A stretch of DNA of 64,000 nucleotides. Origin: Puniceicoccales bacterium. GTDB taxonomy: Bacteria > Verrucomicrobiota > Verrucomicrobiia > Opitutales > UBA953. The position numbers were made by a program, and so were the translations under genes. The notes beneath the pieces are model-generated. The model was not told the DNA's origin and ran no database searches. It worked only from the letters and a program-made list of their open reading frames with translations. Location of the stretch: positions 1 through 64,000 of the forward strand of contig JAISZI010000031.1 in NCBI GenBank assembly GCA_031269335.1, given 5' to 3'. The first letter of the stretch is position 1. Every line of letters begins with the position of its first letter. This document shows, one piece after another, positions 7,501 to 41,888 of this stretch.

Positions 7501-10500
7501 AGGCGCCACCGGCGTCTTTTTGGGCGAAGTTCAGCCCCGCGATGTCGAGCGTGCCGCCTGCTACGATGACGGTGCCGCCGCTGCCCAGCGCGTAGATGCT
7601 CCCAAGGCGCAAGATGCCGCTCGTCACGCGGGTTATGCCCGTGTGCGTGGAGACGCCGGATATGACCTGCGTGCCGTAGCCGGCTTTGGTGACATTGAGT
7701 TTCGCGTCCCCGTCGGCGAATCCGCCGGAAAATTCGCGCGTTAAATTAGTCGGGACGTTGATGGTGAGCGTTGCTTCGCCGGCGGACCGTCCGTTGGCGA
7801 TGATTCCCCCGCCTGACGCCTCGGAGTTGATGCCGGAGACGTTGACGGCGACGACTGTGCCGCTGCCAAGCAACGGGTGGTTCAGTTCGACTCTTCCGTT
7901 TGACTCGACGGTGAGGAGGCCGGAAGACGGGACGAGCGGGGAAGTGTTCACTGCGCCGAGCGGGTTGGCTTCGTGCAATTCGAGCACGCCGTCGTAAATG
8001 ACTGCGCCGCCGCGGAACAAGCCATTATTGCTTGCGAGGATGAGGGTGCCTTTGCCGCGTTTTTCAATGGGGTAGGTGCCGGAGAGCGTCGCATCCCTTG
8101 AGAGCGTGAGCACGCTTCCGGTCGGAATGAGGAAGGAGCCGCCGTCGGCGGAAGTGACTATCCGGTTCGGGATCGTTATCTGTGTCGGCTCGGCGAGCAA
8201 ACCGCCGGTTTCACTAATATCCGCGACGACGAGGTCGCCGCCCGCGAACGTTATCGCGCCCCCGCCGACGGCCATGTCGGTGCTAATGACGAGGGCGCCT
8301 TCGCGCAGAATGGTGCCGCCGGTGTATCCGTTTTCGCCGGTGAGATGCCAGACGCCGGTTCCCTTCTTTTCAATGGTGAGAATTTCTCCGGAAAGTTCCA
8401 AGGGGATGGGCAGACCGAGGATGCCGCCCGCGGTGGTCACGGTGCCGAGCAAACCGGTGCTGCGCAGGTAGTCATAGCCTTCACGACCACCGGCACCGGT
8501 GAGGGTGAGCGTGCGCGCACCGGCTCCGGTGAACGCTACGGGGTCGGTTCCGTTGAACCAGACGCGTGTATTTTCACCCGTGGAGGCGATTTCAATGGCG
8601 CCGCCGTTGAGGCGCGTGCCTTCGGAGGTGCTGCCTACGCCGACGGTGAAAGAGCGGTTTGTCGTGGTGGCGTTGTTGACATCGCCGCGGAAACGCAGTG
8701 TGCCGCCGTCGAGTCGGAGAAATTCCGCGCTGTTGACTTCGTTGGATGTGTCACCGCCGGTGCCGAGAAGGCTGTCTGCGTTCGGGTTGTATGTTGCATC
8801 TACCGCGCCTACTCGTTTATTGCCGAGCAGGGTTACGCCGACGCCGCCAGTTACTTCTATTGCGCCTTCGATGATTACAACGCTACGGGAGAAGGAGTTA
8901 AGAAATTGCGCTTTTTCACTTGCACCTGCATTTCCAATTCCGCCTCCTTCAATCGCCAGAACGAGCGTTCCGGAGCCGCGTTTTTCGAGAGACACCTGCC
9001 CGGAGATATGACCCCCGGAAAATCCGCTCTCCGCAAACGTTACACTATTAATTAAGCGATAAGTTTTTGATGTGTCAACGGTTATTGAGAACGGGCGAAC
9101 TTCGGTGTTTATAAGTATATCTCTACTTGCACTGGAGTCGTTGTCATTGAACTCTACGGAACTCCATGTTTCAAAATATGTTTTCAACCCATCCTCGACG
9201 TTTACCCAGTTCGTGACTTCCACCTTATCATTCCAAATTCTTTTATCAGCTTCAGCGGCGTCGTGATCGTCCCAGATAAGCACCCTTGTCGCCTTGATTA
9301 TGTGGACTAACAAGGATTTGCGATCGAGAGACACGTCGAGGGTGGGCAGTGCGCGCTGGCTATTGGTCACGCCACTGGTGTCTAAATGGAAGGTATCAAA
9401 CATAGCCTCTGTGATGGTCCCACCGAGAGCAGACAGAGTCAGAACCGGGAGTCCGTTGCTGCCGGAGAGAGCATGATTATCCCAGTCAACGGCGTCGCCG
9501 GAGATAGCGATGACGTTGGAGCCGGTGGCGGAGAAGGTAACGGTGCTTATCAAGTCGGCGGAAGCGTCGTTGGTTATGGCAAACTGGAGGCGGGAGTTAT
9601 TGGTGGTGAGGCTATTGACATTGAGGGTTTCGCCGCTTGCGGCGGAGCCGATGCGCAGGGAATGCCCGCCTGTGACTATCAATTCTCCGGCGATATCGAT
9701 GATGCCGCCGCTACCGGTGTGTCCTGCGTAGGAGAGGGCGTTTCCGTTGAGGGTGAGTGAGCCGTTGGTAACGGTGAGTCTCGCGCCGCTTTCCATTTCG
9801 AGCCTTTTTGGCGTGACGGTATTGGAGATGTTTCCGAAGGTCAGGGTACCTTGTTCTATGCGGATGTAGCCCGTGTTTCTTAACGTGATATTACTCAGGT
9901 CGATAGTTCCGGTGCTTTTGACTAAAATGTTCCCCTCGGAACTGATGGCGTTGGCGATGGTGGTGCCCGTTCTCGAGAAGGCGAGTGTAGCGTCAGCGGC
10001 GACGATCACGGCACCTCCGTTGCTGATGGCTCCGGTGGTCCCGCCGTTGCCCACTTGAAATGTGCCTTCATTGATAGTGGTCGTTCCTGTGTAAACATTG
10101 TTGCCCGACACCACCATTGTCCCCGGTCCCGTTTTCAAGAGGTTGCCGGTCTTTGACGCATTGCCGATGACGGCGGTTACTAACAGACCGGGTATCCCGA
10201 CATCGGGATCGCGCAGCACGGCAAATTCGTTCAGGTCGACACCATCCCCACCACTCAATCGCACGCCCCGTCCGTCTGTACGGCCCATGTCTTCAATTAG
10301 CGAGGTGCTGCTTCCGTTGACGGTGACTTTTCCGTTAAATGTGATGCAACCCCATGCCTCCTGTACAATTGGATTCATCTTAAATTCGTTTCGTATCGTT
10401 CCGCCGTTTAGGAAGATGTCTCCAAAGGCATTATTTCTTTGGCGGACATCATCATGATCTACGACGAGTAATCCGCCCGCCTCAATAGTTATCACTGCAC

Positions 10501-13500
10501 TGGGGACAGCGTTTCCTCCACCCCAACTATCGAAGTGGGCGATTCGCAATGTGCCTCCGGACTCGATCTTGATTGGGGCAGAAGGAAGTTTGTAACGGTA
10601 ATTTTCCGAGGATCCCCCGACAAAAAGTTCTCCCTCCTTAATTACCAAGCCGTTGTTGACGGAGCGAAGATCCTGAACCCTCAACTTTCCCTCTCCTTCT
10701 TTAACGAGGGTAAGCCCTATGCCAGCAATGGGAACGATGAGGTACTGCACAGCTTCATCGATATTTATATCTCCGCCGCCGGTGTCGATGGTGAGTACTC
10801 CTGTGGAAGAAGTTATTCTGCCGGCACCAGAAATAAGGACCTCGCCTCCCGCCGTGCTAGTGCGGGAAATTTTCTCCACGTCGAGAATCGTGGAATCCGA
10901 GCCGGTCAGCAGCATCCTCCCCGAAGCGAATTGTATTTCCTTAAAATACGACCTGCCGCCAGTGAAATAAAGTGTTCCCGCGCCGGTGGTGTTGGCCATT
11001 CGGAGAGTGGCGTTTCTCCAGTTGGCGCCGTCACCGTTTCCGTCGAAGTAATAATTAAGCCCATTTCCTATTATTGTGCCGCTGTATGCGCTGCTGCCGG
11101 TGGAAGTGAAATGCCGGTATTTGCCGTCGGCTGGACCGAGTGTGATGTCGCCGGTGCCGGAAAATGCGCCGCCGAAATACAGGTGCTCGGTGGCTCCGCC
11201 GCTTCCGATCAAGTTGAGGTTAACGGAAGCATCAAGCTCGGTGTGAATCACGTTGCTAACACCGTTGACAGTAACGTCCAGGGTCGTGCCCGCAGCTGCA
11301 AAGGAGACCACGCCGGAGCCAAGGGCGTTTGTCTCCGCAGCTACCACCGTTCCGCCTTCGATAACAGTGCCGCCGCTGTAAATGTTGGGGGTGCTGATTG
11401 TCAGCTTCCCGCTGCCTCTTTTCGTCAATTTTGCACCACCGGCTATAGTGCCCTCACCAGAGATAATATAGTCCTTCGTAGTATTATCTACCACGATGCT
11501 CCCCGGTGTGACACTGACGTTTGCTGGAATCTCAACCTCGGTATGCTGGGCGGTGTCGTCAAAAAGGACATTGTCGCCGGTAAAAAATCTGTCGCTGGAG
11601 TTGTCTTTGAGTTTTATCCAGTTTAGACCAGCAGCCTCGTAACCCCAAGAATTCCCTCCTAAAATGCCGTTCCAGAGGAGGTTGGCGGGCAAGGCGTCTT
11701 CCGGCACTAAGAGGACAATTCTACCGTCGCGCTCTTCGATGAGCGGTGCTTCTCGGAAGGATTCAACGTCTTTAACCGCGAAATCGCCGTTATTTTTAAC
11801 AAAATTTCCGGAGTATAACAAGGCGTCCACTTCGCCATCTACCGCATGGGAGAGGAGGGCGCTGACGTCCAGCAAGACGGTGGCGTTACTGTTGAGTGTG
11901 ACGTTGCGAAAGGACACGGCGGGTTCGTCGCCGATGGCGGTGAGGCTGAGCGTGGTGTTTTGGGCGAGCGTGATATCGCCGAATTTATTTCGGTCTAAGG
12001 TGAGCGTCCCTCCGTCAAGTTTAAGGTTTAGGTCGTCGGTCTGGACGTTGGAAAGGATGAGCATGCCGTCGCCCTTTTTCACGATTTCGCCGTTGCCGGT
12101 CACTGCGCCCGTGACGGCGAAGATGCCGTTTGAATTATTGACCGCAAACACGCTGTTTTGCTCGATGTGCAGCGGTCGGCTTAATTCGCCTGAATCGGAA
12201 GTGCTGACCCCAAGTTCGCCTTGGGCGACCGTCACGGGACTTCTGAACGTCTCCAAATTGCCGGAAAGGGTGAGCGAGCCGAGGCCGCGTTTTTCGAGGG
12301 GGCGGGAGCCGGTGATTGTGCCCGAAAAAGTGCTGACGGAGGCTGGGGCATCTTGCGCTCCGATGATGAATGCGCCCGTGCCCGTGCCCAGCGCGATAGT
12401 GCCCGGAAGCGAACCCGCCGCGAAGCCGGCGATCTGCGTGGAGGCATTTCCGGTGAGGGCGAGGGTGGCGCCGGCGTTGGCGAAATTGAGCAAGCCGATC
12501 GTGTTTTCGCCCGATGCCGTGGCAATGGTGAAGGTGACGGCTTCCGTTATCGTCGTTTCGCCTGTGTAACGGAGCGCGCCTTCGAGCGTTATCGTGCCTG
12601 TGCCTTCTTTATAGACGGAGACATTTCCCGTAATGGAACCGCAGTAGTAGGAACTAAGCACGCTGGTGCCACCGTCGTTACCGATTTTAAGCGTGGAGAC
12701 GTGCGCGGTGTCGGAATTGGTGATCTCGCCGCCGGTGTAGGGGGAGGTGGAGTCAACCTCCGTGATCCGTGAACTGCTGGCGAGGAAGGCTACGCGTTCG
12801 CTGTGCCCGTTGAGGTCGAACACGCCGCCAGCGACGACAAGACCGGACTGAGCGTTAATCTGGTTTCCTTTATCGTGCACCGGCTGCCCCAAGGAGGCTT
12901 CATGGATGATTTTTACAAGACCGTCTTTGATGACGAGACCTTCGGCACCATCATTATTGCTGGAACCGGCACCAGTCACGCGTGTCGGGCTGACTGCGGC
13001 TCTGTCTCCCGTGGAGGCGGCGTGGATCGTGCCCTCGGCGTTGAGTTGGGCGTTGAGTTCCACTACGCCGCCCCAGACAGTTACGGCGGCTCGGATGTCG
13101 TCTGGCGTGGAGGTGGCAAGTTCAACAGTGCCCAGCGAGGGACCATAATTGAAGGAGGGGGCGACGCCATGCGGACCTTGAACGTCGCCGCCAAGGTTCA
13201 GGCGGCGGCTATTCCAGCTATCTAAGGGGTAGTTCCAGTAGCGTTTAACGATGACTCTTCCGTCGGGGTCGCGGACGTAGATGTGGTTCCTCCTCTCGGG
13301 ATTGTCTCTATTATCATATTCGAGGTAGAGTTGGTTAATGGTAACCGTCTCCGTGCCTGTATAATCCAAACTTCCGCGATACATGAAAACAACCCCTTGG
13401 ATGCCATCACCGTTGTCACCGATACTTTCGGGGTAGGCAAAGGTTAGGAGGGTTGAATTCTGATACAGCGCAATGAAAGAACCACCGGTCGGGTAAGTCG

Positions 13501-14083
13501 ATGTACTCTTAGAAGTAAATTCATTGCTCCCTTTGAGTTCATTTCTCTGGGTGAAGATAATGTGATCGCCGCTCCAAGGGGTATTGCCATACTCGATACC
13601 GACCAAGAATGTAAAATCACCTATGATGGTGGCGTCAACGGAAACAGGCTCGCCATATGGACGTAAGCCATGTCCGATGCGGATGTGAGAATTGGCTGCA
13701 TTGGGGGAGAGATAGACGATGTCGCCCTCGCCCGGAATTTCGGTGACGGCACCGGTGCCGTCTGCGTTTTTTGAGAAATTATCAACAAACTCCCACCAGT
13801 GCGCGGAATTTGCGTCCCCGACACCGAAACCCGTCCAGTAGTAGATCTCGGCAGAGGCGGAAGGCGCGTCGGCAAAAAAGCCTGCGGCGGAAGTCGCTGC
13901 AATCGCGGCGGCATTGGCGAGAAACCGCACAAACCCGCGCTTGCTGCGGCGAGCAGCGGGAGAAGTGCCGGAAACAGAAGAAGTGCCGGAAACAGAAGAA
14001 GACGTAGAAGTGTCCATAGGAGGAGAGCAAAGCGGATGGTTTTTAGGTTCTGACGAAAAAGTGGTGTGAGTGGAAGTTTTCAT
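1559..14083 (-). CDS. Giant autotransporter (4174 aa): signal-peptide-like N-terminus, very long PATR/beta-helix passenger, C-terminal autotransporter beta-barrel ending in ...SFRVRF
   Basis: Recurrent passenger strands (e.g. LIKTGTGTLVLNG, YTGTTTINEGTFQVGNGG, GSGTLVLA), barrel segment FQPYILATGFLERNNGN...FVGADYNVNTHLVLGANVGYS, terminal aromatic. Confidence 0.95.
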   Translation of the reverse strand: MKTSTHTTFSSEPKNHPLCSPPMDTSTSSSVSGTSSVSGTSPAARRSKRGFVRFLANAAAIAATSAAGFFADAPSASAEIYYWTGFGVGDANSAHWWEFVDNFSKNADGTGAVTEIPGEGDIVYLSPNAANSHIRIGHGLRPYGEPVSVDATIIGDFTFLVGIEYGNTPWSGDHIIFTQRNELKGSNEFTSKSTSTYPTGGSFIALYQNSTLLTFAYPESIGDNGDGIQGVVFMYRGSLDYTGTETVTINQLYLEYDNRDNPERRNHIYVRDPDGRVIVKRYWNYPLDSWNSRRLNLGGDVQGPHGVAPSFNYGPSLGTVELATSTPDDIRAAVTVWGGVVELNAQLNAEGTIHAASTGDRAAVSPTRVTGAGSSNNDGAEGLVIKDGLVKIIHEASLGQPVHDKGNQINAQSGLVVAGGVFDLNGHSERVAFLASSSRITEVDSTSPYTGGEITNSDTAHVSTLKIGNDGGTSVLSSYYCGSITGNVSVYKEGTGTITLEGALRYTGETTITEAVTFTIATASGENTIGLLNFANAGATLALTGNASTQIAGFAAGSLPGTIALGTGTGAFIIGAQDAPASVSTFSGTITGSRPLEKRGLGSLTLSGNLETFRSPVTVAQGELGVSTSDSGELSRPLHIEQNSVFAVNNSNGIFAVTGAVTGNGEIVKKGDGMLILSNVQTDDLNLKLDGGTLTLDRNKFGDITLAQNTTLSLTAIGDEPAVSFRNVTLNSNATVLLDVSALLSHAVDGEVDALLYSGNFVKNNGDFAVKDVESFREAPLIEERDGRIVLLVPEDALPANLLWNGILGGNSWGYEAAGLNWIKLKDNSSDRFFTGDNVLFDDTAQHTEVEIPANVSVTPGSIVVDNTTKDYIISGEGTIAGGAKLTKRGSGKLTISTPNIYSGGTVIEGGTVVAAETNALGSGVVSFAAAGTTLDVTVNGVSNVIHTELDASVNLNLIGSGGATEHLYFGGAFSGTGDITLGPADGKYRHFTSTGSSAYSGTIIGNGLNYYFDGNGDGANWRNATLRMANTTGAGTLYFTGGRSYFKEIQFASGRMLLTGSDSTILDVEKISRTSTAGGEVLISGAGRITSSTGVLTIDTGGGDINIDEAVQYLIVPIAGIGLTLVKEGEGKLRVQDLRSVNNGLVIKEGELFVGGSSENYRYKLPSAPIKIESGGTLRIAHFDSWGGGNAVPSAVITIEAGGLLVVDHDDVRQRNNAFGDIFLNGGTIRNEFKMNPIVQEAWGCITFNGKVTVNGSSTSLIEDMGRTDGRGVRLSGGDGVDLNEFAVLRDPDVGIPGLLVTAVIGNASKTGNLLKTGPGTMVVSGNNVYTGTTTINEGTFQVGNGGTTGAISNGGAVIVAADATLAFSRTGTTIANAISSEGNILVKSTGTIDLSNITLRNTGYIRIEQGTLTFGNISNTVTPKRLEMESGARLTVTNGSLTLNGNALSYAGHTGSGGIIDIAGELIVTGGHSLRIGSAASGETLNVNSLTTNNSRLQFAITNDASADLISTVTFSATGSNVIAISGDAVDWDNHALSGSNGLPVLTLSALGGTITEAMFDTFHLDTSGVTNSQRALPTLDVSLDRKSLLVHIIKATRVLIWDDHDAAEADKRIWNDKVEVTNWVNVEDGLKTYFETWSSVEFNDNDSSASRDILINTEVRPFSITVDTSKTYRLINSVTFAESGFSGGHISGQVSLEKRGSGTLVLAIEGGGIGNAGASEKAQFLNSFSRSVVIIEGAIEVTGGVGVTLLGNKRVGAVDATYNPNADSLLGTGGDTSNEVNSAEFLRLDGGTLRFRGDVNNATTTNRSFTVGVGSTSEGTRLNGGAIEIASTGENTRVWFNGTDPVAFTGAGARTLTLTGAGGREGYDYLRSTGLLGTVTTAGGILGLPIPLELSGEILTIEKKGTGVWHLTGENGYTGGTILREGALVISTDMAVGGGAITFAGGDLVVADISETGGLLAEPTQITIPNRIVTSADGGSFLIPTGSVLTLSRDATLSGTYPIEKRGKGTLILASNNGLFRGGAVIYDGVLELHEANPLGAVNTSPLVPSSGLLTVESNGRVELNHPLLGSGTVVAVNVSGINSEASGGGIIANGRSAGEATLTINVPTNLTREFSGGFADGDAKLNVTKAGYGTQVISGVSTHTGITRVTSGILRLGSIYALGSGGTVIVAGGTLDIAGLNFAQKDAGGALLVERTITVGDGENYGTITDSTGGGSLPLLTLARDTTLTSGGTTVITTVQGSHTLSLAPHVADVAPTFVINAESFHPDTPDTPPVRVSAIAITAGELQLVASNGITGAIAGDNATLKLNGGSLRLVGRDVTQTFGKIEGTGDITGFGTVHVIGSIVDTDIADIRGSLRESVNFTLDSGYLELTNPASDTDGAITVGPGSTLIIRQREDILGNATLAINNGTVRFITPSGESEPLDHNIHFDGNFATIESSGASAVRITGVTSFSINVSDYPLTLSGTNTADNTLAVGLKDPDWVVGAKTSLVKNGSGTWVLAHGSENDAVVPNTYTGGTTIANGTLKVGAANAIPAQTSVTLGSALSAGILDLNGNDVSVSSLAVEGFRPGNAVINSALGTTPVFAWHATADAVFNAALGASGAGTNNSFIFEKTGSAKLTFGGSLHYTGETRVIEGTLAFSTAAALPASASIIVSPRATLDATPLADGFVLGAGKAITAGSATTDLSTDLVGDFILDGGALIIGNGSSTTALSASNLLRLDGSLTVASVGSELEYNLARYPGDASSVLKTDTLNLNAIATVRIRMTEAFITPGEYTLVEYGTLNGDYTQLLNIPGNPYDPRYTYQIQNRPEIGPGVSRLILNVTSSSTDNFITWVGGMAGDETVWNNVFPNFTDGTTLLGYDIASSALFDDSAAGFEITVGKNAGETVTLGVIFFNNNRNDYSISGPGTIEGEGYIWKTGTGTLTINAENTYRGRADSITGERYAATILSEGTIALGHDKALGPDAILITGGTLARARLEDRSIANTIIIGDGQTTRVTIDAGDSGAFILNGILQGGADGASLIKAGTGTLVLNGETAAFEGKLIIGTGELATRANADLAAAKVILDGIAPVLVLGGGTTKIGTLEGTTNARITATTPGEQVISTGARGEDSEFSGVFDNSTDTLSLIKTGTGKLLLSGSYNSGLSGRITVEAGTLQLGDGLHGSFVNGSLLIKEDAKLVINLPVSLAFSQNVESQGIIEKQGTNTLAIPVTNDTLGGIFRVTAGVLSLQAAGTFGTAKLENSASIELNREDSYSLVNDISGTGTLTKNGTGTVTYLGTHTGTGTTYLNAGTLRFSDNVIYLKNQQHLAPIETSRDTNLLLSPATGTEREPGKITLGNVTGTGRIEKTGGGTAVLTGLIQVHNSLNGNADILVGEGTLYIGNGEARGSRATLNVASTINVQTGAILAISRTGTTSLDQAVTSTGTIDMHGDLNGDGVAILASASNQITGTIEVHRSTILQIGAAATPARLNDGSSVVKVALDPNSTLRFTRVAFGETSPAIAIYSTKDEGGIIEYDGGAYLHFNSATTIGTDKAFVGTFLASNGTFAVDADSLPAGATLDASGAGNLFLGAQTDTALTPRFGTGDGIITLGAKDTTVNAVAYTLASRAEFSGIIAVGERTTLHLTGTPTDQEPILTASALRVENGALLTGNGVINATLHNRLGGTVRPGNSVGQITLSGNFLNEGALELSMDSADSFSSIHYAGSAILDTVGSLSIRLKKSVFDALPSGAEFKILSDTEGSTDASVSGNFSQNNISLILTDDLDNQIDIPRTREILTYNKGDGGLTLLFASRVGDIRTLQLHQSLGNYESYLSNDILGGTDTALIATVSRLLGSSDVSRAFNAASPVSLAALTAMPIRAAHESSAVLHSHLESLRYGRAVRASLDNFQPYILATGFLERNNGNLKGPAFDQRSHGGFVGADYNVNTHLVLGANVGYSIGRADLAFSTGRIDHDSFRGAIYGTYMFNDFWYADASVFAGYNFYDIKHQTQAGDATAKPDGYDLGATFTLGSVVRLQQRLHLTPHASLEYDSATVKGFTEQGHEAALRVDSFTQDSLRARVGTGVNWQVPTETETYSLRFGFDLSYARELLDADAPITARFASDLSGNRFRVNAPASAENSFRIGPTFDLEFAEDVWDTIKGMSVHAGYHFEYDFKNQQIHQINVSFRVRF
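13962..13997. repeat. In-frame tandem duplication of 18 bp (gaagtgccggaaacagaa x2) in the N-terminal signal region of the autotransporter (SSVSGTSSVSGTS)
   Basis: Two identical adjacent 18-mers. Confidence 0.85.
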
Positions 14084-24750: not shown

Positions 24751-27381
24751 TCAGAAGACGGCGCCGAAGGAGAAGTTAAAGCGCACGCCGTCGTTGTTGT
24801 CGTAATGCTTTGATGTTGTCAGCGGCCAGCCGATGTCGATGCGCATGATTGCCGCCATGACCTTTATGCGGAAGCCGAAGCCCGCGTTGTCGTTGTAATT
24901 GGCAGCCTCGAAATTGAAGCTGCCGCTGTTGAGGAATCCCCAGTCGTAGAAGAAGGCGACCCGCAATTCATCGAAGAGTTTGACGGTGTATTCGGCGCTG
25001 AAGAAGGCGTAGGTATTGCCGCCGGTGGGTTCGTCGCCATCGAAGGGACCGACGTGGTCGTATTTGAATCCGCGGAGGTTGTAGGCGCCGCCGAGTTTGA
25101 ATCGTTCGTAGAAGGGGATGTAGCCGCTGCCGTAGTGGATCATGGAGCCGGCGCGGGCGCGGAGGAGGAGGGTTTGCTCGGCGGCGTCGAAGATGGGTAT
25201 CCATTGGGCGGCGTGGGCATCGATGCTGTAGTAGTTAATGTCGCCGCCGAGGGGTCCGCCGGCGACGGTGTTGAAGAGGGAGAAGCGATTGCCGTAGGTT
25301 GGGAAGAAGGCGTCGTTTCGGGTGTCGCGGTAGAATGTGAGTCCGACCTTGGAGGCTACTTTGGCACCTTCTTCGGCGCGGACGAAGCTGGGGGCGCTGT
25401 ATGCAATGTTGCGCGTTTTAATCTCTTCAATGGTGTAGCCGAGCTGTGCGTTGATGTTTTCGTAGATGCGGCGTTGGGCGTGGATGTTGAGGCCGAGGCG
25501 TTGCGTCTCGTAGTCGCTGCTGGAGAAGCTCTCGTTGCGGAGATAGGCTTCATAGCCGACGGAAAGCTCGCGTTCTCCAAACCAGGGAATCTCGAAGCTC
25601 TGGAGGACGAGGTTGGAATGGGTGCCGATTTGGACGCGGAAGCGGAATTTTTGTCCGCCGCCGCGGAAGTAATTGCGATAGTTAAAAATGTCGAAGTTGC
25701 TTTCGGAGTATTCCGCGAATGCGTAAAGTTTTTCGATGCTGGAGAAGCCGCCGCCGAAATTGAGACTGCCCGTGCTTTCTTCGGCAACCTCGATACGCAA
25801 GTCTCTGCGGTTCGGGACGTTGACATTGCTTATTTCCGGCTGGAGTATGACGCTCTTAAAGAAGCGCGTATTCCGCAGTATCGTTTCGGAATTTCTCATG
25901 CGCACGGTGTCGAAAACTTCGCCCGGCGCCATGATCAACTCGCGGGTGATAACGCGGTTACGTGTTTTGGTGTTGCCGATGATGTTGATTGTGCCGAGGT
26001 AGGTTTTGACGCCTTCGGTGACGTAGAAGACGAGATCGACTTCGCCGGTTTCGACGTTCGGGCGGCGGCGGACGGTGACGAAGGTGTTGAGGTAGCCGTA
26101 TTGTCCGTAGTGGTCGCGGATTTTCTGGATGGCGTTTTCAATGGCGGTGGGGGAATACCAATCGCCGCTTTCGATGGAGTCGAAGTTGGTGCGCACTTCG
26201 GAGACGTCGTCGGCTTTGACGCCGTCGGCGAATACGCTGTCAATGACGCGGCTGCCGAAGGGGTAGGGGCGGGTGATGTCGCGGCGACGTCGGGCGAGGT
26301 TTACGAGGATGGTTTTGGTGTTGAAGACATTGATTTCGTGAAGGCGGTCCGGGCTGGCGTTGACGGTTTCGTCGGTCTCGTGTGGTTTTTTTGAGCCGAG
26401 GATATTCCCTTCAATCGATAGTTTGCCGACTTTGTAGCGACGCCCTTCGGAGACTTTTATTTTGAGCGAGATACGGGCATCCTGCCCGCCGGTTTCGATG
26501 ATGTCGCGCTCGATGGTTTCCTCTGGTATTTCGATATCGAGAAAGCCTTGGTTGCGGTAGAAAGCGCGGAGTTTTTCGATGTCGGTGCGAAATTCTTCGG
26601 AGTGGTAGTAGCCTAATTGGCGAATGGGAGATATTTTCAGGAAGCGGTTTCCGGGGAAGTCCGCAGGGTCGAAAAGCAATGCCCATGAGGAAGTTTCGAT
26701 TTGGGGGCGCAGATCGGCCTCCCGGATATGCGTGTTGCCGGAAAATGTTACCGAGGAGATTGTGACATCATAATTTTCTTTAATGACAAAAGTAACAGTG
26801 GCAGTGCCATTTTCCTCGTTGCGGTCGATCTTTGGTGTGATTTCGGCGAAGGGGAAGCCCGATCCGTCATATTTTTTGCGAAGTTTTTCGCAGGTGCGGG
26901 CGATGAGGACTTCGTTGAGCGGGTCGCCTTCGCGAATGAGGCTTTCGTCGATGAGTGCTGTGCCGAAGGTGCTTTCGGTGTCCCAGTAGGTGTTGCCTTG
27001 GAAGCTGACTCTTTCGACGCGCATGCGCGGACCGAGGGTTACGCGCACGCGCACGGTGCCATCGGCGGCGGGCGGGTCTGGGTCTATGCTGACGTATTCA
27101 TAGAAGCCTGTCGCGTAGAGGGCGCGGACGGAGGCGTCGGAAGCTTCTTGGGTGAAGGGCAGACCGGGTTTGAGCCGCATTTGAGCGGCGGCTTCGTCGG
27201 CATTCATCGGGCGTTGTCCCTCGAAGCGGTATTCGATCGTGGAGACAAGCGGTTCGCGATAAAGAGGGGCGGAAGGTGCGGGCGGGCGCGGATTTTCCTG
27301 CGCATGTGCGCAAATAGAAATGCCGGCGGCGCAAGCGGTGAGAAACGCGAATAGGCCGGGTTTAAGGAGATTGTGAGTCAT
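24751..27381 (-). CDS. bamA: Outer membrane protein assembly factor BamA
   Basis: Signal peptide, successive POTRA-type segments (VERVSFQGNTYWDTES...), C-terminal barrel (GSGYIPFYERFKLGGAYNLRGFKYDHVGP), terminal F. Confidence 0.95.
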   Translation of the reverse strand: MTHNLLKPGLFAFLTACAAGISICAHAQENPRPPAPSAPLYREPLVSTIEYRFEGQRPMNADEAAAQMRLKPGLPFTQEASDASVRALYATGFYEYVSIDPDPPAADGTVRVRVTLGPRMRVERVSFQGNTYWDTESTFGTALIDESLIREGDPLNEVLIARTCEKLRKKYDGSGFPFAEITPKIDRNEENGTATVTFVIKENYDVTISSVTFSGNTHIREADLRPQIETSSWALLFDPADFPGNRFLKISPIRQLGYYHSEEFRTDIEKLRAFYRNQGFLDIEIPEETIERDIIETGGQDARISLKIKVSEGRRYKVGKLSIEGNILGSKKPHETDETVNASPDRLHEINVFNTKTILVNLARRRRDITRPYPFGSRVIDSVFADGVKADDVSEVRTNFDSIESGDWYSPTAIENAIQKIRDHYGQYGYLNTFVTVRRRPNVETGEVDLVFYVTEGVKTYLGTINIIGNTKTRNRVITRELIMAPGEVFDTVRMRNSETILRNTRFFKSVILQPEISNVNVPNRRDLRIEVAEESTGSLNFGGGFSSIEKLYAFAEYSESNFDIFNYRNYFRGGGQKFRFRVQIGTHSNLVLQSFEIPWFGERELSVGYEAYLRNESFSSSDYETQRLGLNIHAQRRIYENINAQLGYTIEEIKTRNIAYSAPSFVRAEEGAKVASKVGLTFYRDTRNDAFFPTYGNRFSLFNTVAGGPLGGDINYYSIDAHAAQWIPIFDAAEQTLLLRARAGSMIHYGSGYIPFYERFKLGGAYNLRGFKYDHVGPFDGDEPTGGNTYAFFSAEYTVKLFDELRVAFFYDWGFLNSGSFNFEAANYNDNAGFGFRIKVMAAIMRIDIGWPLTTSKHYDNNDGVRFNFSFGAVF

Positions 27382-28883: not shown

Positions 28884-31800
28884 CTATTTTACGCCCCAGA
28901 AATTTATTTTTTCGTTGGGTATCACGACAGGAGCGACCGTTGTAGGAAGGTTTTCGTCATCGCAGTAGAGGAATACTTCCTGATCTTTTTTCAAATCAAT
29001 TTCAAAAACTCCGGGTTTAATTTCATTCACCTTTATTTGAGAAGGTGGCGTTGGACTGGCGCCGCTTGATTTATTTAACTTTGACGGTAGCGCAGATGCG
29101 ATGCGGAAAGGTTGTTTGAAATTTGGTTTTATTTTGCACGGTTCGCCGGCGAGGCTTTTTATTTTAACCCAGTTTGTTTCTCCATTTTTTCGTATTGCCG
29201 TTACGAGAAAAGCACCTTGGGTGCGGAGATTTTGAAATGTGGCATCTTTCCATGCTGGCGGGACTGCCGGGAAAACCCGGATGACATTGCCCCAACTTTG
29301 GAGCAACATTTCTTGGAGTGATTCGGCGGCGGCAATCGAGCATTCGATCACCGGTGAACCTTCGATATACTGCGTGTTAGGCATTACGAAGCGTTTGTTG
29401 TTGTGATGCGCTTTCAAACATTTCAGGGCATTCTCGCCATCGCCAAGATAGGAATATATTGCGGAGGCTGCCGCGTGCGACCATCCGTAAATTTGCCTGC
29501 CTCTATCGACCGTCAACCAATGTTTAATCGATTTTTCAATAATTGCTTTGTTCTCGGCTTGGTCGGTGGAGAGAACGTGCAATGGCCACGTCATCAAGAG
29601 ATGCGACCAGTGCCGGTGGGATTGTTTAAGTGATTTAGTGCGACCGATGCGAAATCCAGTCTCGTCTCGTGGAAAATCTACAAGGTCTCTCAAAATTTCT
29701 TCCCACCGTGGGCGGCGCGTGTCGTTGAATTTATGGCGATTGTCGAGGTAAATCAAGGTTTCACACGCCCAGCGCAAGAGGGATAAATTGTAATTATTAT
29801 CAGCATCGTCGCCGTATTCCGGCGAATGGAACACTGGCAGATGTAACTTGCCGTCGTTGCCTTTCTTTAATAAATTGGAATACAAATTTACGCTCTGTTT
29901 TAATAGCGGATAAAAGGCGTGTGTTTTATGATCGGTAACGAATTTTTCGTTCATGGAAAAGCGGTATTGCTGCCAGTAGAGGTGCAGTGCCCATGTGAAA
30001 TCGCCCGGATTGATGTAGCTGGCGGGCGCGCAGGTTCCATCGCCGCGCAGGCCCTCGTAGTCGGTCGTGTGCGGAACGGTGGCGCAATCGTCGAATTTCC
30101 AGATGTCTTTTGCATTCTTCACAAAGTTGTTTCTTTTTGCGTCAATAAACCGCGTAAAAGATTCGCCAAGTTCGAGGCGGTTGGCGGTATAGACCGGGGA
30201 GTAAGCGAGCTGGATGTTGAGGTTCCACCAGATGCGTGGCCAACCGGTCTCGCGATACCACGGACCGAGCAAGTCTATGACCATGCGGTCGTTGCGTGTC
30301 GCCGAGGCGAGTTTATAGATTTGATTCCAGTAGAAACCTTCGACTTGTGAATCGGGGACGGAGACGAAGCTGGCTGGATAATAGTTGTTCCACCAATGCC
30401 GGTGGGAGTTTTCGAGTTCTTGTGTTGAAATTTTGGCGACTTGCGTGACAGTTTTCACCGCTATTTCTTTTGAGTTGGCGGCGGGGAAAGTGTCGGCGAC
30501 GGTGAGGATTAGGCGCCGTCCATTGTCGCTATCCGCATTAACGAGCCATGCCGTTGTATAAGAACCGCCGGCGGCGCGTTTTTGTTCACAGTATTCGACA
30601 TTTTTTACGCGACCGCTTTCGGGTTGGGGATTAGGTGTTATTTTCGTTTTTTTCATTTCGTTTCGGAAGACGACGGCATTTTTTGGTCCCCACTGGAAAG
30701 TGGCGTTTTTTTCGGCGCCGCTGAATTTGAAATTGGCGATCAGCGCAATTTCTTTGGCGTGATTGAAGGCGCGAAAATTAATGGTTCCCGCGTCGGTGAT
30801 GACTTCTCCGAGGACTTCGGCATTCCAGATGTCTGTGCGCAAGGTGCCGGATTTTATTTTTCCTACTGTTTTTAGTAGAAGACCGCCGATGGGTAAACGT
30901 CCGTTGTCGCGGCGGTGGTCGGTGACGTCGGAACGTCCAATTTCAAATCGAATTTGCTGTTGTGAATCTTGGAAGATAGTCGTGCCGAGTAAGCCGTTGC
31001 CGAGAAAAGCACCGTGGTCGAACTTGAGCGGCAATTTTTCCCAGACTGGGTCTTGTTTTGCGAGGAATGCCTGCCAGTTGATACCTTGCTGGACTGCCTG
31101 TTGTTGCTGCTTGGAGTTCTGTTGGTCGCGGATAAGTTTTCCGACTTCGCGCAAGGTCGCCGCATCGATATCGCTGAAAGCACCGTGGTCGAACTTTCTC
31201 GGCAATTGAATAAGTCTTCCGACTTCGCGCAAGGTCGCCGCATCGATATCGCGGAGTCTTCCATTATAATCGGGTCCGACGTCGATTGAAAAAATATTTC
31301 CGTATTTGACCGCTCCGAGATAATCATTAAAGAGTCTTTTCGCAGGATGAGCCAATTTGTCATGTCTCGGCAAGGAATAAAACCACATTGCACCACCTTC
31401 ATGAGGCGGCAATATCGGGTAAGTAAATTCCGCGATCTTCCAGTTGTTGCGTCCGGCTTTCATGTAGGGTCCTGCCGCGGACGTGTTTGCAAGTGGTCCC
31501 GGTTTCCCCAGTTCGCCGAGGCGTATGTCGGCACTTGTTTGGTCGCCGTGATTGTATCCGATGAAACAGTTGGGCTGGAACTTCTTGCACCATGCGGTCG
31601 TTTCCTCGTGACTTAATCCACCGGTTCCTACCGCGTGGTCGAACCAGATAAATTCGATGGGACCGTAGTTTGTCAGAAGTTCTTTGAGCTGCGCTTTTTT
31701 TGCTTCGGGATTGTGTCCGCCTTTATAGGAATGCCCGTCAACCGCGCCTTTCCAAGTCCAGTCGCCTTCCGAAAAATATAATGCGAGTTTGATTCCATAT

Positions 31801-32387
31801 TTATCACAGGACTTTTTTAGTTCGGCTAATACATCTTTTTTTAGCGGCGCATTTGTCACTTTTCGCTCAGTTGTTTTTGTGTCCCAAAGGCAAAAACCGT
31901 CGTGATGTTTTGTCAGAAATAAAATGTAGCCCATTCCGGCTTCTTTCGCCGTCTTTGCCCATTGGTCGGTATCCACATTCTTTGCTGGAAAGAGTTTGTC
32001 GTAATCCGTCCGTTTGGCGACGCCGCCCGTCCATTCGCGTCCCGAAAACGTGCTAAATGACCAGCAAATAAACGTTCCCCAGCGTAAATTTTTGAGTTCT
32101 TTTACGCGTTCATCGGAAATGGTAGAAGGCGGGACGGAAGCTGGGTTTGGCGCGGGCGCGGCGAAGGTTGTGGGAGAAAATAAAACTATGGGTATGAACA
32201 GCAGCGACAAAATAAAACCGACATATTTTTTAGTCCACTGTGAGGCGATGTTTGTGCGCGCCAGAAAATTCTCTACTGTGCGAGAAAAGGGCAGGGCGCG
32301 AGTTTGTTTTGTATTAAGACGGGCGCGTGAGCCGTCAGTGGCAAGGAATGCCGGTGGTGTAGTGTTTTTTAGCGAGAACATGATCAT
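28884..32387 (-). CDS. Bidomain secreted fucosidase: GH29-type alpha-L-fucosidase fused to a GH95-like domain
   Basis: GH29: RWGTFICWSFSTFSGREWTGG, GYILFLTKHHDGFCLWDTKTTE, IEFIWFD; GH95-like: GNGLLGTTIF, GWPRIWWNLNIQL, RVFPAVPPAWKDATFQNLRTQGAF; signal peptide FILSLLFIPIVLFSPTTFAAP. Confidence 0.85.
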   Translation of the reverse strand: MIMFSLKNTTPPAFLATDGSRARLNTKQTRALPFSRTVENFLARTNIASQWTKKYVGFILSLLFIPIVLFSPTTFAAPAPNPASVPPSTISDERVKELKNLRWGTFICWSFSTFSGREWTGGVAKRTDYDKLFPAKNVDTDQWAKTAKEAGMGYILFLTKHHDGFCLWDTKTTERKVTNAPLKKDVLAELKKSCDKYGIKLALYFSEGDWTWKGAVDGHSYKGGHNPEAKKAQLKELLTNYGPIEFIWFDHAVGTGGLSHEETTAWCKKFQPNCFIGYNHGDQTSADIRLGELGKPGPLANTSAAGPYMKAGRNNWKIAEFTYPILPPHEGGAMWFYSLPRHDKLAHPAKRLFNDYLGAVKYGNIFSIDVGPDYNGRLRDIDAATLREVGRLIQLPRKFDHGAFSDIDAATLREVGKLIRDQQNSKQQQQAVQQGINWQAFLAKQDPVWEKLPLKFDHGAFLGNGLLGTTIFQDSQQQIRFEIGRSDVTDHRRDNGRLPIGGLLLKTVGKIKSGTLRTDIWNAEVLGEVITDAGTINFRAFNHAKEIALIANFKFSGAEKNATFQWGPKNAVVFRNEMKKTKITPNPQPESGRVKNVEYCEQKRAAGGSYTTAWLVNADSDNGRRLILTVADTFPAANSKEIAVKTVTQVAKISTQELENSHRHWWNNYYPASFVSVPDSQVEGFYWNQIYKLASATRNDRMVIDLLGPWYRETGWPRIWWNLNIQLAYSPVYTANRLELGESFTRFIDAKRNNFVKNAKDIWKFDDCATVPHTTDYEGLRGDGTCAPASYINPGDFTWALHLYWQQYRFSMNEKFVTDHKTHAFYPLLKQSVNLYSNLLKKGNDGKLHLPVFHSPEYGDDADNNYNLSLLRWACETLIYLDNRHKFNDTRRPRWEEILRDLVDFPRDETGFRIGRTKSLKQSHRHWSHLLMTWPLHVLSTDQAENKAIIEKSIKHWLTVDRGRQIYGWSHAAASAIYSYLGDGENALKCLKAHHNNKRFVMPNTQYIEGSPVIECSIAAAESLQEMLLQSWGNVIRVFPAVPPAWKDATFQNLRTQGAFLVTAIRKNGETNWVKIKSLAGEPCKIKPNFKQPFRIASALPSKLNKSSGASPTPPSQIKVNEIKPGVFEIDLKKDQEVFLYCDDENLPTTVAPVVIPNEKINFWGVK
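31005..31251. repeat. Interleaved direct repeats at the GH29/GH95-like junction (unit A ~32 bp at 31005 and 31176; unit B 42 bp at 31132 and 31210)
   Basis: B: ataagttttccgacttcgcgcaaggtcgccgcatcgatatcg vs ataagtcttccgac... (1 mismatch); A: gcaccgtggtcgaactt..cggcaatt twice; encodes DIDAATLREVG(R/K)LI and (R/L)KFDHGAF twice. Confidence 0.92.
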
Positions 32388-32454
32388 GGCGAGTGTTGTT
32401 TGGAAGTTTCGTCTGTGGAGACAAGTGTTTTTTTCAGAAGAGAAGGGAAGGTGT

Positions 32455-33753
32455 TTATGTTTTTGGTGGAGGAGGGAGTGTTCCGCGGGTTTGCCCGTGG
32501 CCGATGATTTGGTATTTATAGATCGTAAGTTCTTCCAACGCCATGGGACCGCGGGCGTGGAGTTTGCCGGTGCTGATGCCGATTTCGGCGCCGAAGCCAA
32601 ATGCGCCGCCGTCGGTGAAGCGGGTGCTTGCGTTCCAATAGACCGTCGCACTGTCCACGGCGTTGAGGAAAAATTCGGCGACGGCAGCGTTTTCGGTGAC
32701 GATGGCGTCGGAGTGGCGCGAGCCGTGTGCGGCGATGTGTTCGATGGCGTCGTTGGTGTCGGCTACGATGCGCAGGTTGAGGATCGGGGCGAGCCATTCG
32801 GTGTCCCAATCGGAAGGGGAGGCGGGTTTGGTGATGTTTGGCGCGAGTGCGTGACTGTTGGCGTCGGCGTGGATTTCGACGCCGTAAGCGTTGAGGGCTG
32901 CGGTGATACGCGGGACGAAGGTCGGAGCGATGGCGGCGTCAACGAGCAAAGTTTCCATGGCGTTGCAGACGCCCGGGCGCTGGCATTTGGCATTGAGGAC
33001 GATGTTTTCCGCCATGTCGGGGTCGGCGTCGCGGTGGACAAAGGTGTGACAGATTCCGTTGTAGTGCATGATGACAGGCATCCGTGCATGTTGTTTAACG
33101 GTTTCGATGAGGGTGTGACCGCCTCTGGGAATCATGAGGTCAATGTATTTTTCGAGGGAACAAAGGAGGGGAACGGCTTCGCGGGTGGTGACGGGGACGA
33201 GGGAGGCTGCGCCGTTAAAGCCATGCTTTGCAAGTGCTTGTTCGAGGGCGTTGGCGATGGCGGTGTTGGAGTGAAAGGCTTCTGCGCCGCCCCGCAGGAT
33301 GGTGGCGTTGCCCGCTTTGAGGCAAAGTGCGGCGGCGTCGGCGGTGACGTTGGGGCGCGATTCGTAGATGATGCCGATGACGCCGATGGGGACGGCGCGT
33401 TTGCGGATGCGCAGGCCGTTGGGGAGCGTCCATTCGCGGAGGATGCGCTCGGTGGGATCGGGCAAATCGGCGATTTTTTCGATGCCGGCGGCGATATCGG
33501 CGATGCGTTCTTTTGTGAGGCGCAGGCGGTCTATGAGTGCCGGGTGGAGCTGGGAGGCGGCGGTGTCGGCGGCATTGGCTTCGAGTATCGCTGGGGCGTT
33601 TTGTCTAAGGGAAGAGGCAATGTCGTGCAGGGCGGCGTTTTTTTGCGAAGCGGAGGCGGCGGCGAGAGCGCGGGAGGCGTCACGGGCAACAGAAGCGATA
33701 GCGGTCAGGGTTTCAAGAAGGGCAGCTGTGCCCGATGTTGTTGATGGGTGCAT
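32455..33753 (-). CDS. proA: Glutamate-5-semialdehyde dehydrogenase (gamma-glutamyl phosphate reductase)
   Basis: PIGVIGIIYESRPNVTADAAALCLKAGNATILRGG; ARGPMALEELTIYKYQI-like C-terminus. Confidence 0.96.
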   Translation of the reverse strand: MHPSTTSGTAALLETLTAIASVARDASRALAAASASQKNAALHDIASSLRQNAPAILEANAADTAASQLHPALIDRLRLTKERIADIAAGIEKIADLPDPTERILREWTLPNGLRIRKRAVPIGVIGIIYESRPNVTADAAALCLKAGNATILRGGAEAFHSNTAIANALEQALAKHGFNGAASLVPVTTREAVPLLCSLEKYIDLMIPRGGHTLIETVKQHARMPVIMHYNGICHTFVHRDADPDMAENIVLNAKCQRPGVCNAMETLLVDAAIAPTFVPRITAALNAYGVEIHADANSHALAPNITKPASPSDWDTEWLAPILNLRIVADTNDAIEHIAAHGSRHSDAIVTENAAVAEFFLNAVDSATVYWNASTRFTDGGAFGFGAEIGISTGKLHARGPMALEELTIYKYQIIGHGQTRGTLPPPPKT

Positions 33754-39060: not shown

Positions 39061-39191
39061 GAAGAAGTGATGGTCGCAATGAGAACTCGGCGGGTATTTG
39101 GCGCAAGAAAACAATGCGGCGGGCGGGTGTTACATGGATTTTACCGTCGCAGTGATTGCATTTTTCAGCGGCAGCTCAATATAGGGCGCGT

Positions 39192-41888
39192 ATGAAATTC
39201 AAAACTTCTGCTTTGCTATCCCATCGGTGCGCCAAAGTTTCGCGCCGTTTTCTCTCTTCTGCATTGCTTGCGGCGGCTGCGCCGTTGGCGAGCGCGTGGC
39301 TGATTTCTTCAGATGTCGCTGCTGCCAATGATGTTGTGCGGCTGACATTTTCCGCCGAGCTGACTTTTTCCGATGGGCGCACGGTAAACTCCGTGGACAT
39401 CCGCCTTTTCCCTGACGCCGCACCGATCACCGTGGAAAATTTTCTGCGCTACGTCACCGAGGGAAGATACAATGAAACTTTCATTCACCGCAGCGAGAAA
39501 GATTTCGTTGTTCAGGGTGGCGGCTATACCGTCGTCGCGACGGAAGAGGGTAACTCGATTACGCCCATTGATAGATACGATGCGATTACTAACGAGTTCA
39601 ACCAGTCGAACCTTCAGGGCACGCTCGCCATGGCGCGAGCTTCCGGGGTTGAGGACTCCGCAACCAGCGAGTGGTTTGTCAACATCGTGGACAACGACCC
39701 GCTGGACGGTGTGGACGGCGGTTTCACGGTTTTCGGCGAACTCCGAACTGCCGCCGATGTGGAGTTTTTCAACGCGCTCAATAGTCTTTCCACCTTCAGC
39801 GTCGATGGAACGGGCTTCACCAATATTCCGACCCTCGACGATCAGGGGTCTCTCGTTTGGATCATTTCCGCCGAAGTTATTTCCCGCGACGAAACCGTGA
39901 ACGACCGCATTCACACATGGGTCGGCGGGACTTCGGGAAAATGGGACCTCACGACGCGCAATTGGAATATCGTAGAGGGGAACGGCATTGCCCGCATTTT
40001 CACGCAGGGTTCCGAAGTCGTTTTTAATACGCCAGTAGGGACGCGCAACGACATTGCCCTTGTCGGTGGGTTGAATGTCGCTGATCTGTGCATAAGCGGC
40101 GGCGGCACCCTTGTTTTTAATGGTGCGGAAGGATCTGGTGGCATCACGGGGCAAGTCGGCGGCGTGGTTCCGAGCAATGCCGGTGCGCTGCTCAAAAAAG
40201 ACGCCGGCACGGCAGTTTTTCAATCAACGGTGCTCGATTTCCCCGGCGGGACCCGCGTTTCCGGCGGGATTCTTGCACTGGATAACACGCTGTTGAGGTC
40301 TAACGTCCGCGTCGATCCTGGGGCGGTGCTCCTCATTGGACCCAATGGATCGGGCACAGGTATTTACGGGAACATCGTCAACTACGGCACCATCCAGACA
40401 GGAAACAACGTCGTGGGGCGGCTCGTCATCAACGGCACCTTGACGAACGAGGGCGTGCTCCTCCTCAAGCTCTTCGCCGATGGTTCGCGGGACATTATTC
40501 GCAATGACACCGCGCAACCGATCGTCATCGGGGGAACGCTCAAACTCGACATTGCCAGTGAGTTTTTCACGGGAAACTCCGCAATCAGCTTCAACTTCGG
40601 CGAATTTGTCGAGGCTGGTGCCGGTGATGTTTCACTCTCGCCGGACACGACACTGGCGTTCGCAAATCCGCTTTTTATAGGAGAAATTACAGACTGGGCC
40701 AGCGGGCAGATTGAACTGCGCCGCAGTATCGAGGGAATCCCGGTGCGCTCCCACTTGATCCGATTCCGGAGTGCCCTGAACGCTCTCCACGCAAATGACC
40801 CCACAGGCGCCAGCGGCAGCTTCGTCGAATCCATTCTCTCCACTGCCTCTGGCGCAGGCGGCACTGGCGCTACCACGCAGGCAATCGCCGTCGCTTCTCC
40901 GCTCGGCTACTCAAGCCTGACCACCATGTCTAACGCCCTCGCCAACAGCAATGTTGCTGCCGTGCGCGGTCGCATTGCGGCGTTTTACAACGGAACCCTC
41001 ACCGAGAATGCCCCCGCCAAAAAGACCGACGCGACCAGCGCCGGCATCCGGCATCCGTATTCCTCGAATCTCTACATCGCCGCCGGCGGTTCCTTGGCTA
41101 AAAACGGCACCGAAAACACGAACCCCTTCTACGACACGCAAACCTACTCCGTCGGCGTGGGCATCGACGGGCACGTGAAAGATAAAATCCTCGCGGGTGT
41201 CCGCCTCGACGGCGGTAGCGGCAATGCCGATTTCCACTTTGACGCGGGCAAGGCGACCACGAACCAGTTTCAAGCCACGGGCTACGCCTCCATTCCCCTC
41301 ACAAACCAGTTCCGCGCCGACACCGCCGTTTTCGCCGCTTACGCCAACCACGAAGTAAAACACCGCACCCTCGCCGGTGGCGCGGTCAATGAGGCTGACG
41401 CCCGCGGTATTACGGCAGGTGTATCTTCATGGCTAACAGGCAGTTTCACGATAACCGAGACGCTCGACTTTTCCCCGTTTGCCGGCGTCGAATTCACCCA
41501 CGCGAGCACAGGTTCGCTCACGGAAGATGGCGGCGAAGCCAATGGCGCACTTTCCATAGACGCCATTTCGCAGAATTCGCTCCGCGTCCGTGTCGGCGGA
41601 GCTGTCCGTTGGCGTTTCCTGCCGGACGCTCACCTTTCCTTGAACCTTGCGTATGCACGAGAACTGCTCGGGACGGACACCGAAATTAAAGCGCGTTTCA
41701 CCGCCGCAGGATTGCCAAAATTCCGCGTGAACGCCCCCGCCCTCGCCGAAAATGCAATTGAGGCGGGTCCCTCCCTTGATGTGAAACTTTCCGATGCCAC
41801 CGCGATCTCCGCGGGATACTTCTTTGAAAGCAATTTTGCCGACCGGACCGCACATCATTTCAACGCTTCTTTTCAATGGCGTTTTTAA
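39192..41888 (+). CDS. Cyclophilin-type peptidylprolyl isomerase fused to an autotransporter passenger and C-terminal beta-barrel
   Basis: Cyclophilin motifs ITVENFLRYVTEGRYNETFIHRSEKDFVVQGGGYT, NLQGTLAMARASGVEDSATSEWFVNIVDNDPLDGVDGGFTVFGEL; passenger GTLVFNGAEGSGG, LLKKDAGTAVFQS; barrel ARELLGTDTEIKARFTAAGLPKFRVNAPALAEN...FNASFQWRF. Confidence 0.93.
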   Translation: MKFKTSALLSHRCAKVSRRFLSSALLAAAAPLASAWLISSDVAAANDVVRLTFSAELTFSDGRTVNSVDIRLFPDAAPITVENFLRYVTEGRYNETFIHRSEKDFVVQGGGYTVVATEEGNSITPIDRYDAITNEFNQSNLQGTLAMARASGVEDSATSEWFVNIVDNDPLDGVDGGFTVFGELRTAADVEFFNALNSLSTFSVDGTGFTNIPTLDDQGSLVWIISAEVISRDETVNDRIHTWVGGTSGKWDLTTRNWNIVEGNGIARIFTQGSEVVFNTPVGTRNDIALVGGLNVADLCISGGGTLVFNGAEGSGGITGQVGGVVPSNAGALLKKDAGTAVFQSTVLDFPGGTRVSGGILALDNTLLRSNVRVDPGAVLLIGPNGSGTGIYGNIVNYGTIQTGNNVVGRLVINGTLTNEGVLLLKLFADGSRDIIRNDTAQPIVIGGTLKLDIASEFFTGNSAISFNFGEFVEAGAGDVSLSPDTTLAFANPLFIGEITDWASGQIELRRSIEGIPVRSHLIRFRSALNALHANDPTGASGSFVESILSTASGAGGTGATTQAIAVASPLGYSSLTTMSNALANSNVAAVRGRIAAFYNGTLTENAPAKKTDATSAGIRHPYSSNLYIAAGGSLAKNGTENTNPFYDTQTYSVGVGIDGHVKDKILAGVRLDGGSGNADFHFDAGKATTNQFQATGYASIPLTNQFRADTAVFAAYANHEVKHRTLAGGAVNEADARGITAGVSSWLTGSFTITETLDFSPFAGVEFTHASTGSLTEDGGEANGALSIDAISQNSLRVRVGGAVRWRFLPDAHLSLNLAYARELLGTDTEIKARFTAAGLPKFRVNAPALAENAIEAGPSLDVKLSDATAISAGYFFESNFADRTAHHFNASFQWRF

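Follow-up and report, generated by a model that had tools for sequence, protein, structure and literature searches.

Fusion of a cyclophilin with a type V autotransporter barrel in a genus of Puniceicoccales, a putative surface-tethered prolyl isomerase

We show that one open reading frame in the window, that is, in the whole 64,000-nucleotide stretch of Puniceicoccales DNA analysed here, joins a cyclophilin to a type V autotransporter barrel in a single frame. The reading that we consider probable is that of a type Va autotransporter with a cyclophilin passenger, which would be a surface-tethered, probably active prolyl isomerase that originated by a swap of the C-terminus. We infer the export, surface display, tethering and activity of this fusion protein.

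The gene lies at 39192-41888 on the plus strand, from an ATG at 39192 to a stop codon at 41886-41888, and encodes 898 amino acids with no internal stop, so that the coordinates and the single continuous frame given by the first-pass annotation are correct. Because an AGGG sits 5 nt before it, the ATG at 39192 is favoured over an upstream TTG at 39156. The genome that carries the gene (G000) measures 2.5 Mb and is 94% complete, and the neighbours of the gene are lysC and TPR/holA. Its features are as follows.

39183-39186, plus strand: AGGG, possible weak ribosome-binding site, 5 nt upstream of the ATG, read by eye
39192-39326, plus strand: putative signal peptide in a disordered N-terminus, residues 1-45, with a basic N-region, an A/L-rich core and A-x-A sites; pLDDT below 50
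39330-39896, plus strand: cyclophilin domain, residues 47-235, from PF00160 (96.7 bits), the domain model and the Foldseek match to 1j2a
39885-39920, plus strand: junction motif RDETVNDRIHTW, residues 232-243, of the form RDxxVNDRxHxW common to four fusion proteins
39909-40724, plus strand: beta-rich passenger stalk, residues 240-511, from AlphaFold2 strands and homology to an ordinary autotransporter encoded in G000
40749-41006, plus strand: helical linker, residues 520-605, including the long helix 570-605 into the barrel, from AlphaFold2 secondary structure
41064-41885, plus strand: 12-strand autotransporter barrel, residues 625-898, from PF03797, twelve AlphaFold2 strands and Foldseek

Profile searches and structure prediction agree on this order of domains. 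Pfam Pro_isomerase (PF00160, cut-off 21.7 bits) matches residues 67-200 (39390-39791) at 96.7 bits (E 2e-27), and Pfam Autotransporter (PF03797, cut-off 26 bits) matches residues 630-876 at 112.9 bits (E 3e-32), so that both domains that had been read from the letters are found in one protein, far above their cut-offs. The barrel ends in QWRF, its last residue being F898, which bears out the claim of an aromatic C-terminus. An AlphaFold2 model of the whole protein, built from a 36-row alignment (mean pLDDT 79.8), contains a cyclophilin at about residues 53-232, short strands at 240-511, helices at 520-605 and twelve long strands at 625-897; its pTM of 0.55 is low, so the relative placement of the domains is uncertain. 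The 36-residue pore helix (570-605) directly precedes the barrel, whose first strand starts at residue 625. Searched with Foldseek, the complete model resembles most closely the full-length autotransporter structures EstA (3kvn, E 3e-17) and AaaA (9oqa), with further matches to the NalP translocator (1uyn) and EspP, and the cyclophilins of E. coli are matched independently of these autotransporters. Modelled alone, the cyclophilin domain reaches a pLDDT of 93.6 and a pTM of 0.89; it matches E. coli 1j2a with an E of 2e-13 and a TMt of 0.82, its target-normalised TM to 1j2a, 2nul and 1lop is 0.82-0.87, and to bacterial cyclophilins 0.82-0.89. The beta-helix-like middle part that had been proposed is supported by the modelled strands and by homology, with the reserve that in this region both PATR (8.8 bits against a cut-off of 27) and the autotransporter strand repeat TIGR02601 of NCBIfam score below their cut-offs. 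At the other end, the model predicts disorder up to about residue 45-49, and the letters there read by eye as a signal region that starts basic, continues into a core rich in Ala and Leu and has A-x-A sites near residues 35-45.

The residues of the active site suggest that the fusion cyclophilin is probably an active prolyl isomerase, since the key catalytic residues are kept. We aligned E. coli PpiA with 27 further rows, namely the domain in the window and 26 relatives. R100, F105, Q108, A148, F162 and L171, which we take to be R55, F60, Q63, A101, F113 and L122 of CypA, are identical in 27 of 27 domains. Three CypA active-site positions are changed in the window domain: M61, H126 and W121, which presumably correspond to V106, F178 and about P170. 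V106 is common to all 27 rows, position 178 is F or Y throughout, and P170 falls in a gap-prone stretch of the alignment. In CypA, W121 is a cyclosporin contact, and both W121 and H126 are dispensable in bacterial cyclophilins. Since E. coli PpiA likewise lacks a tryptophan at the position of W121 in our alignment, P170 and F178 leave the membership of the domain among the cyclophilins intact. The domain contains no cysteine.

The same architecture is found in three other species of the genus, in proteins of 934 (G008), 1113 (G004) and 1554 amino acids (G003, with additional stalk modules) that are 35-38% identical overall to the window protein; the search in related genomes that the first-pass annotation had proposed is thus positive. 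We take the other fusion-bearing Puniceicoccales MAGs to belong to a termite-gut series, from their isolate names. All four fusion proteins have, on reading by eye, a basic start and an Ala-rich core, and all four carry RDxxVNDRxHxW between cyclophilin and stalk, a motif that occurs nowhere else in the 2.65 million translated residues of the fetched loci. The fusion was not found in 5 of the 9 genomes of the genus, these five being 79-92% complete. Cyclophilins with other partners also occur in the genus: in G005, CARDB takes the place of the barrel behind a cyclophilin that is 54% identical, and G004 has an additional one behind Ig domains. A large protein of the same genus (L024, 761-5479) combines Ig domains with a C-terminal cyclophilin, and near its N-terminus we read by eye a metalloprotease-like HExxHxxGxxH. 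The neighbours differ in every fusion locus examined, with a uvrA-like gene and a class II (D/K/N) tRNA synthetase at L039, a GH88 enzyme and an isomerase-like gene at L037, and GmrSD at L038. The adjoining genes thus differ between these three loci and the window, and no shared neighbourhood hints at what the protein does.

By its sequence, the fusion cyclophilin is a member of a widespread family of exported cyclophilins, whose close relatives are found in Gammaproteobacteria, Planctomycetota, Verrucomicrobiota, Acidobacteriota and Cyanobacteriota. Domain identity to the best matches is 41-49%, and the C-termini of the relatives vary among GlyGly-CTERM, PEP-CTERM-like, Ig, CARDB and long uncharacterised regions. 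GlyGly-CTERM (TIGR03501) scores above its cut-off at L050, similar tails can be read by eye in Pseudoalteromonas, Alteromonas and Rheinheimera, and PEP-CTERM-like tails, also by eye, at L042 and L112. The window protein has neither sorting tag, and the barrel ending in QWRF stands in its place. Outside the genus, a home-made barrel profile found no barrel-bearing cyclophilin in 76 other loci of genome_contigs, in 20 loci from the order or in 14 from the class or phylum. Viral contigs gave two weak cyclophilin matches.

The genome G000 encodes two cyclophilins, the fusion and a 186-aa protein with no evident signal peptide, and only the fusion has the exported-type layout. A tree built from 122 cyclophilin domains unites the six exported cyclophilins of the genus in one group (96), in which members with and without a barrel are intermixed, and sets the housekeeping enzymes far off. 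In G000 itself, an ordinary autotransporter (G000:C84) shares 33% identity with the stalk and barrel across 709 alignment columns. A second tree, of 44 barrels, places the fusion barrels of G003, G004 and G008 in a clade (96/97) and leaves the barrel of the window unplaced; a single clade of all four is not rejected (p-AU 0.37), and the shared junction motif argues for a single origin. The simplest account of these trees and sequences would be one swap, in which an already exported cyclophilin of the genus exchanged its C-terminus for a new anchor, stalk and barrel together, taken from a resident autotransporter. We rejected the idea that the barrel replaced a lost exosortase route, because 8 of the genus's 9 genomes have an exosortase and G000 itself has PEP-CTERM tails.

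Type Va autotransporters are exported through Sec, insert their barrel with the help of BamA and pass their passenger outwards C-terminus first. The fusion protein would accordingly leave the cytoplasm through Sec, BamA would insert its barrel in the outer membrane, and the passenger would be passed through and fold outside, beginning with the stalk and ending with the cyclophilin, which as the N-terminal part should emerge last. The single Omp85 protein of the genome is a BamA with five POTRA domains, encoded within the window (24751-27381, minus strand). No cleavage site was recognised in the fusion protein, so the cyclophilin probably stays attached. It would then remain tethered, with the short stalk holding it away from the membrane, and could isomerise prolyl bonds of surface or extracellular proteins. 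Autotransporters tolerate folded passengers to a limited degree, and FkpA helps (reviewed in PMC1533851).

Other explanations can be weighed against this evidence. That an assembly error or a frameshift fused two genes has practically no probability: the homologous genomes are metagenome-assembled, but the frame contains neither a stop nor a break, and the recurrence of fusion and junction motif in four assemblies with different neighbours rules such an artefact out. It is unlikely, if by no means far-fetched, that the domain serves as a surface binding or adhesion module with dispensable catalysis, binding proline-containing ligands on proteins of host, food or microbial origin. Relatives do join the same domain to Ig and CARDB, which are typical of adhesive surface proteins, and its fast divergence (41-49% identity to the best matches) would suit such a role; the catalytic arginine and its core partners, however, are identical in 27 of 27 domains, beyond what mere binding demands. 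There is also a slim chance that the cyclophilin acts in the periplasm before secretion, as a chaperone built into the protein and serving its own barrel or other barrels, and that its surface exposure is incidental. Periplasmic PPIases do contact type V clients, as FkpA does with EspP and Par27 with FHA (PMC8151025), the search of G000 yielded no parvulin (PF00639), and the fusion is the sole exported-type cyclophilin of this genome. Yet the domain is N-terminal in the same molecule as the barrel and should exit last, the majority of autotransporters, in other genomes of the genus too, have no cyclophilin, and PPIases of the FKBP type are present in G000, which has two such domains.

The first-pass annotation had proposed a cell-surface or secreted foldase, possibly acting on other autotransporters such as the giant one in the same window. 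Its cyclophilin passenger on a type V barrel stands, and this architecture predicts a cell-surface location; a foldase role for other autotransporters is unsupported. We know of no enzyme dedicated to protein folding beyond the outer membrane, and we consider it quite unlikely that the fusion is a dedicated extracellular foldase, tethered by its barrel, which would help other proteins that this genus, rich in autotransporters, secretes or displays to fold once they have emerged. The giant autotransporter (1559-14083, minus strand; 4174 aa) has seven PATR repeats and a barrel and lies 25 kb from the fusion gene. A pairing of the two is unsupported, given the presence of about 17 autotransporter barrels in the 2.5 Mb of G000, the position of the giant's barrel in a different, supported clade of the 44-barrel tree, and other genomes of the genus that are rich in autotransporters yet have no cyclophilin fusion; we found no evidence for a functional pairing.

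A tethered prolyl isomerase, the reading that we prefer, has parallels in several known systems. Enzymes at the N-terminus of autotransporters are known, EstA and AaaA among them. The window protein resembles EstA (3kvn) and AaaA (9oqa) of Pseudomonas and NalP in its N-terminal passenger, the helix leading into a 12-strand barrel and the aromatic end, but their passengers are an esterase, an aminopeptidase or a protease, whereas here a prolyl isomerase would sit on a beta-rich stalk. With E. coli PpiA and PpiB (1j2a, 2nul, 1lop) it shares the cyclophilin fold, about 30% identity and the main catalytic residues; unlike it, these are free, single-domain periplasmic or cytosolic enzymes, and the PpiA equivalog NF008151 of NCBIfam scores only 81 bits against a cut-off of 308, with a PpiB-like match also far below its own. 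A further parallel is offered by the exported cyclophilins of Gammaproteobacteria, Planctomycetota and Verrucomicrobiota, with a 40-50% identical domain, HRSxxGFVVQGGG and NSATSQWF-type motifs and the same layout of N-terminal signal and cyclophilin; they carry GlyGly-CTERM, PEP-CTERM-like, Ig or CARDB regions where the window protein has a barrel. Lactococcus lactis PpiA, like the protein predicted here, is a surface cyclophilin, but it is Gram-positive and membrane anchored, without an autotransporter (PMC3307742). The earlier statement that cyclophilins are normally cytosolic or periplasmic is therefore incomplete, given this surface PpiA (PMC3307742) and the broad exported family with surface-sorting or adhesive C-termini. 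The lactococcal enzyme shows PPIase and chaperone activity in vitro, but its knockout has hardly any phenotype (PMC3307742), which cautions against reading a major role into activity alone.

Out of 5.39 million open-access papers, 20 name both cyclophilin and autotransporter, and no cyclophilin passenger is mentioned in their titles and abstract openings. Prolyl isomerases thus seem not to have been described as native passengers of autotransporters, a provisional statement that covers the open-access literature. What is new is a passenger class inside a known secretion system, not a new secretion system. If the enzyme is active at the surface, it would offer a simple system to ask whether folding catalysts act beyond the outer membrane. 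The exported family as a whole illustrates an enzyme domain that is kept while the anchoring module, be it a sorting tag, Ig or CARDB domains or a type V barrel, is swapped between lineages.

Two further observations concern the genus and the window. In G006, four near-identical autotransporter barrels lie on different contigs (L178, L179, L180 and L008) in frames of different lengths, which suggests recent duplication or recombination. Elsewhere in the window, a 1255-aa frame at 28884-32651 (minus strand) combines an alpha-L-fucosidase (PF01120) with a glycosyl hydrolase 95 catalytic domain, a double fucosidase architecture.
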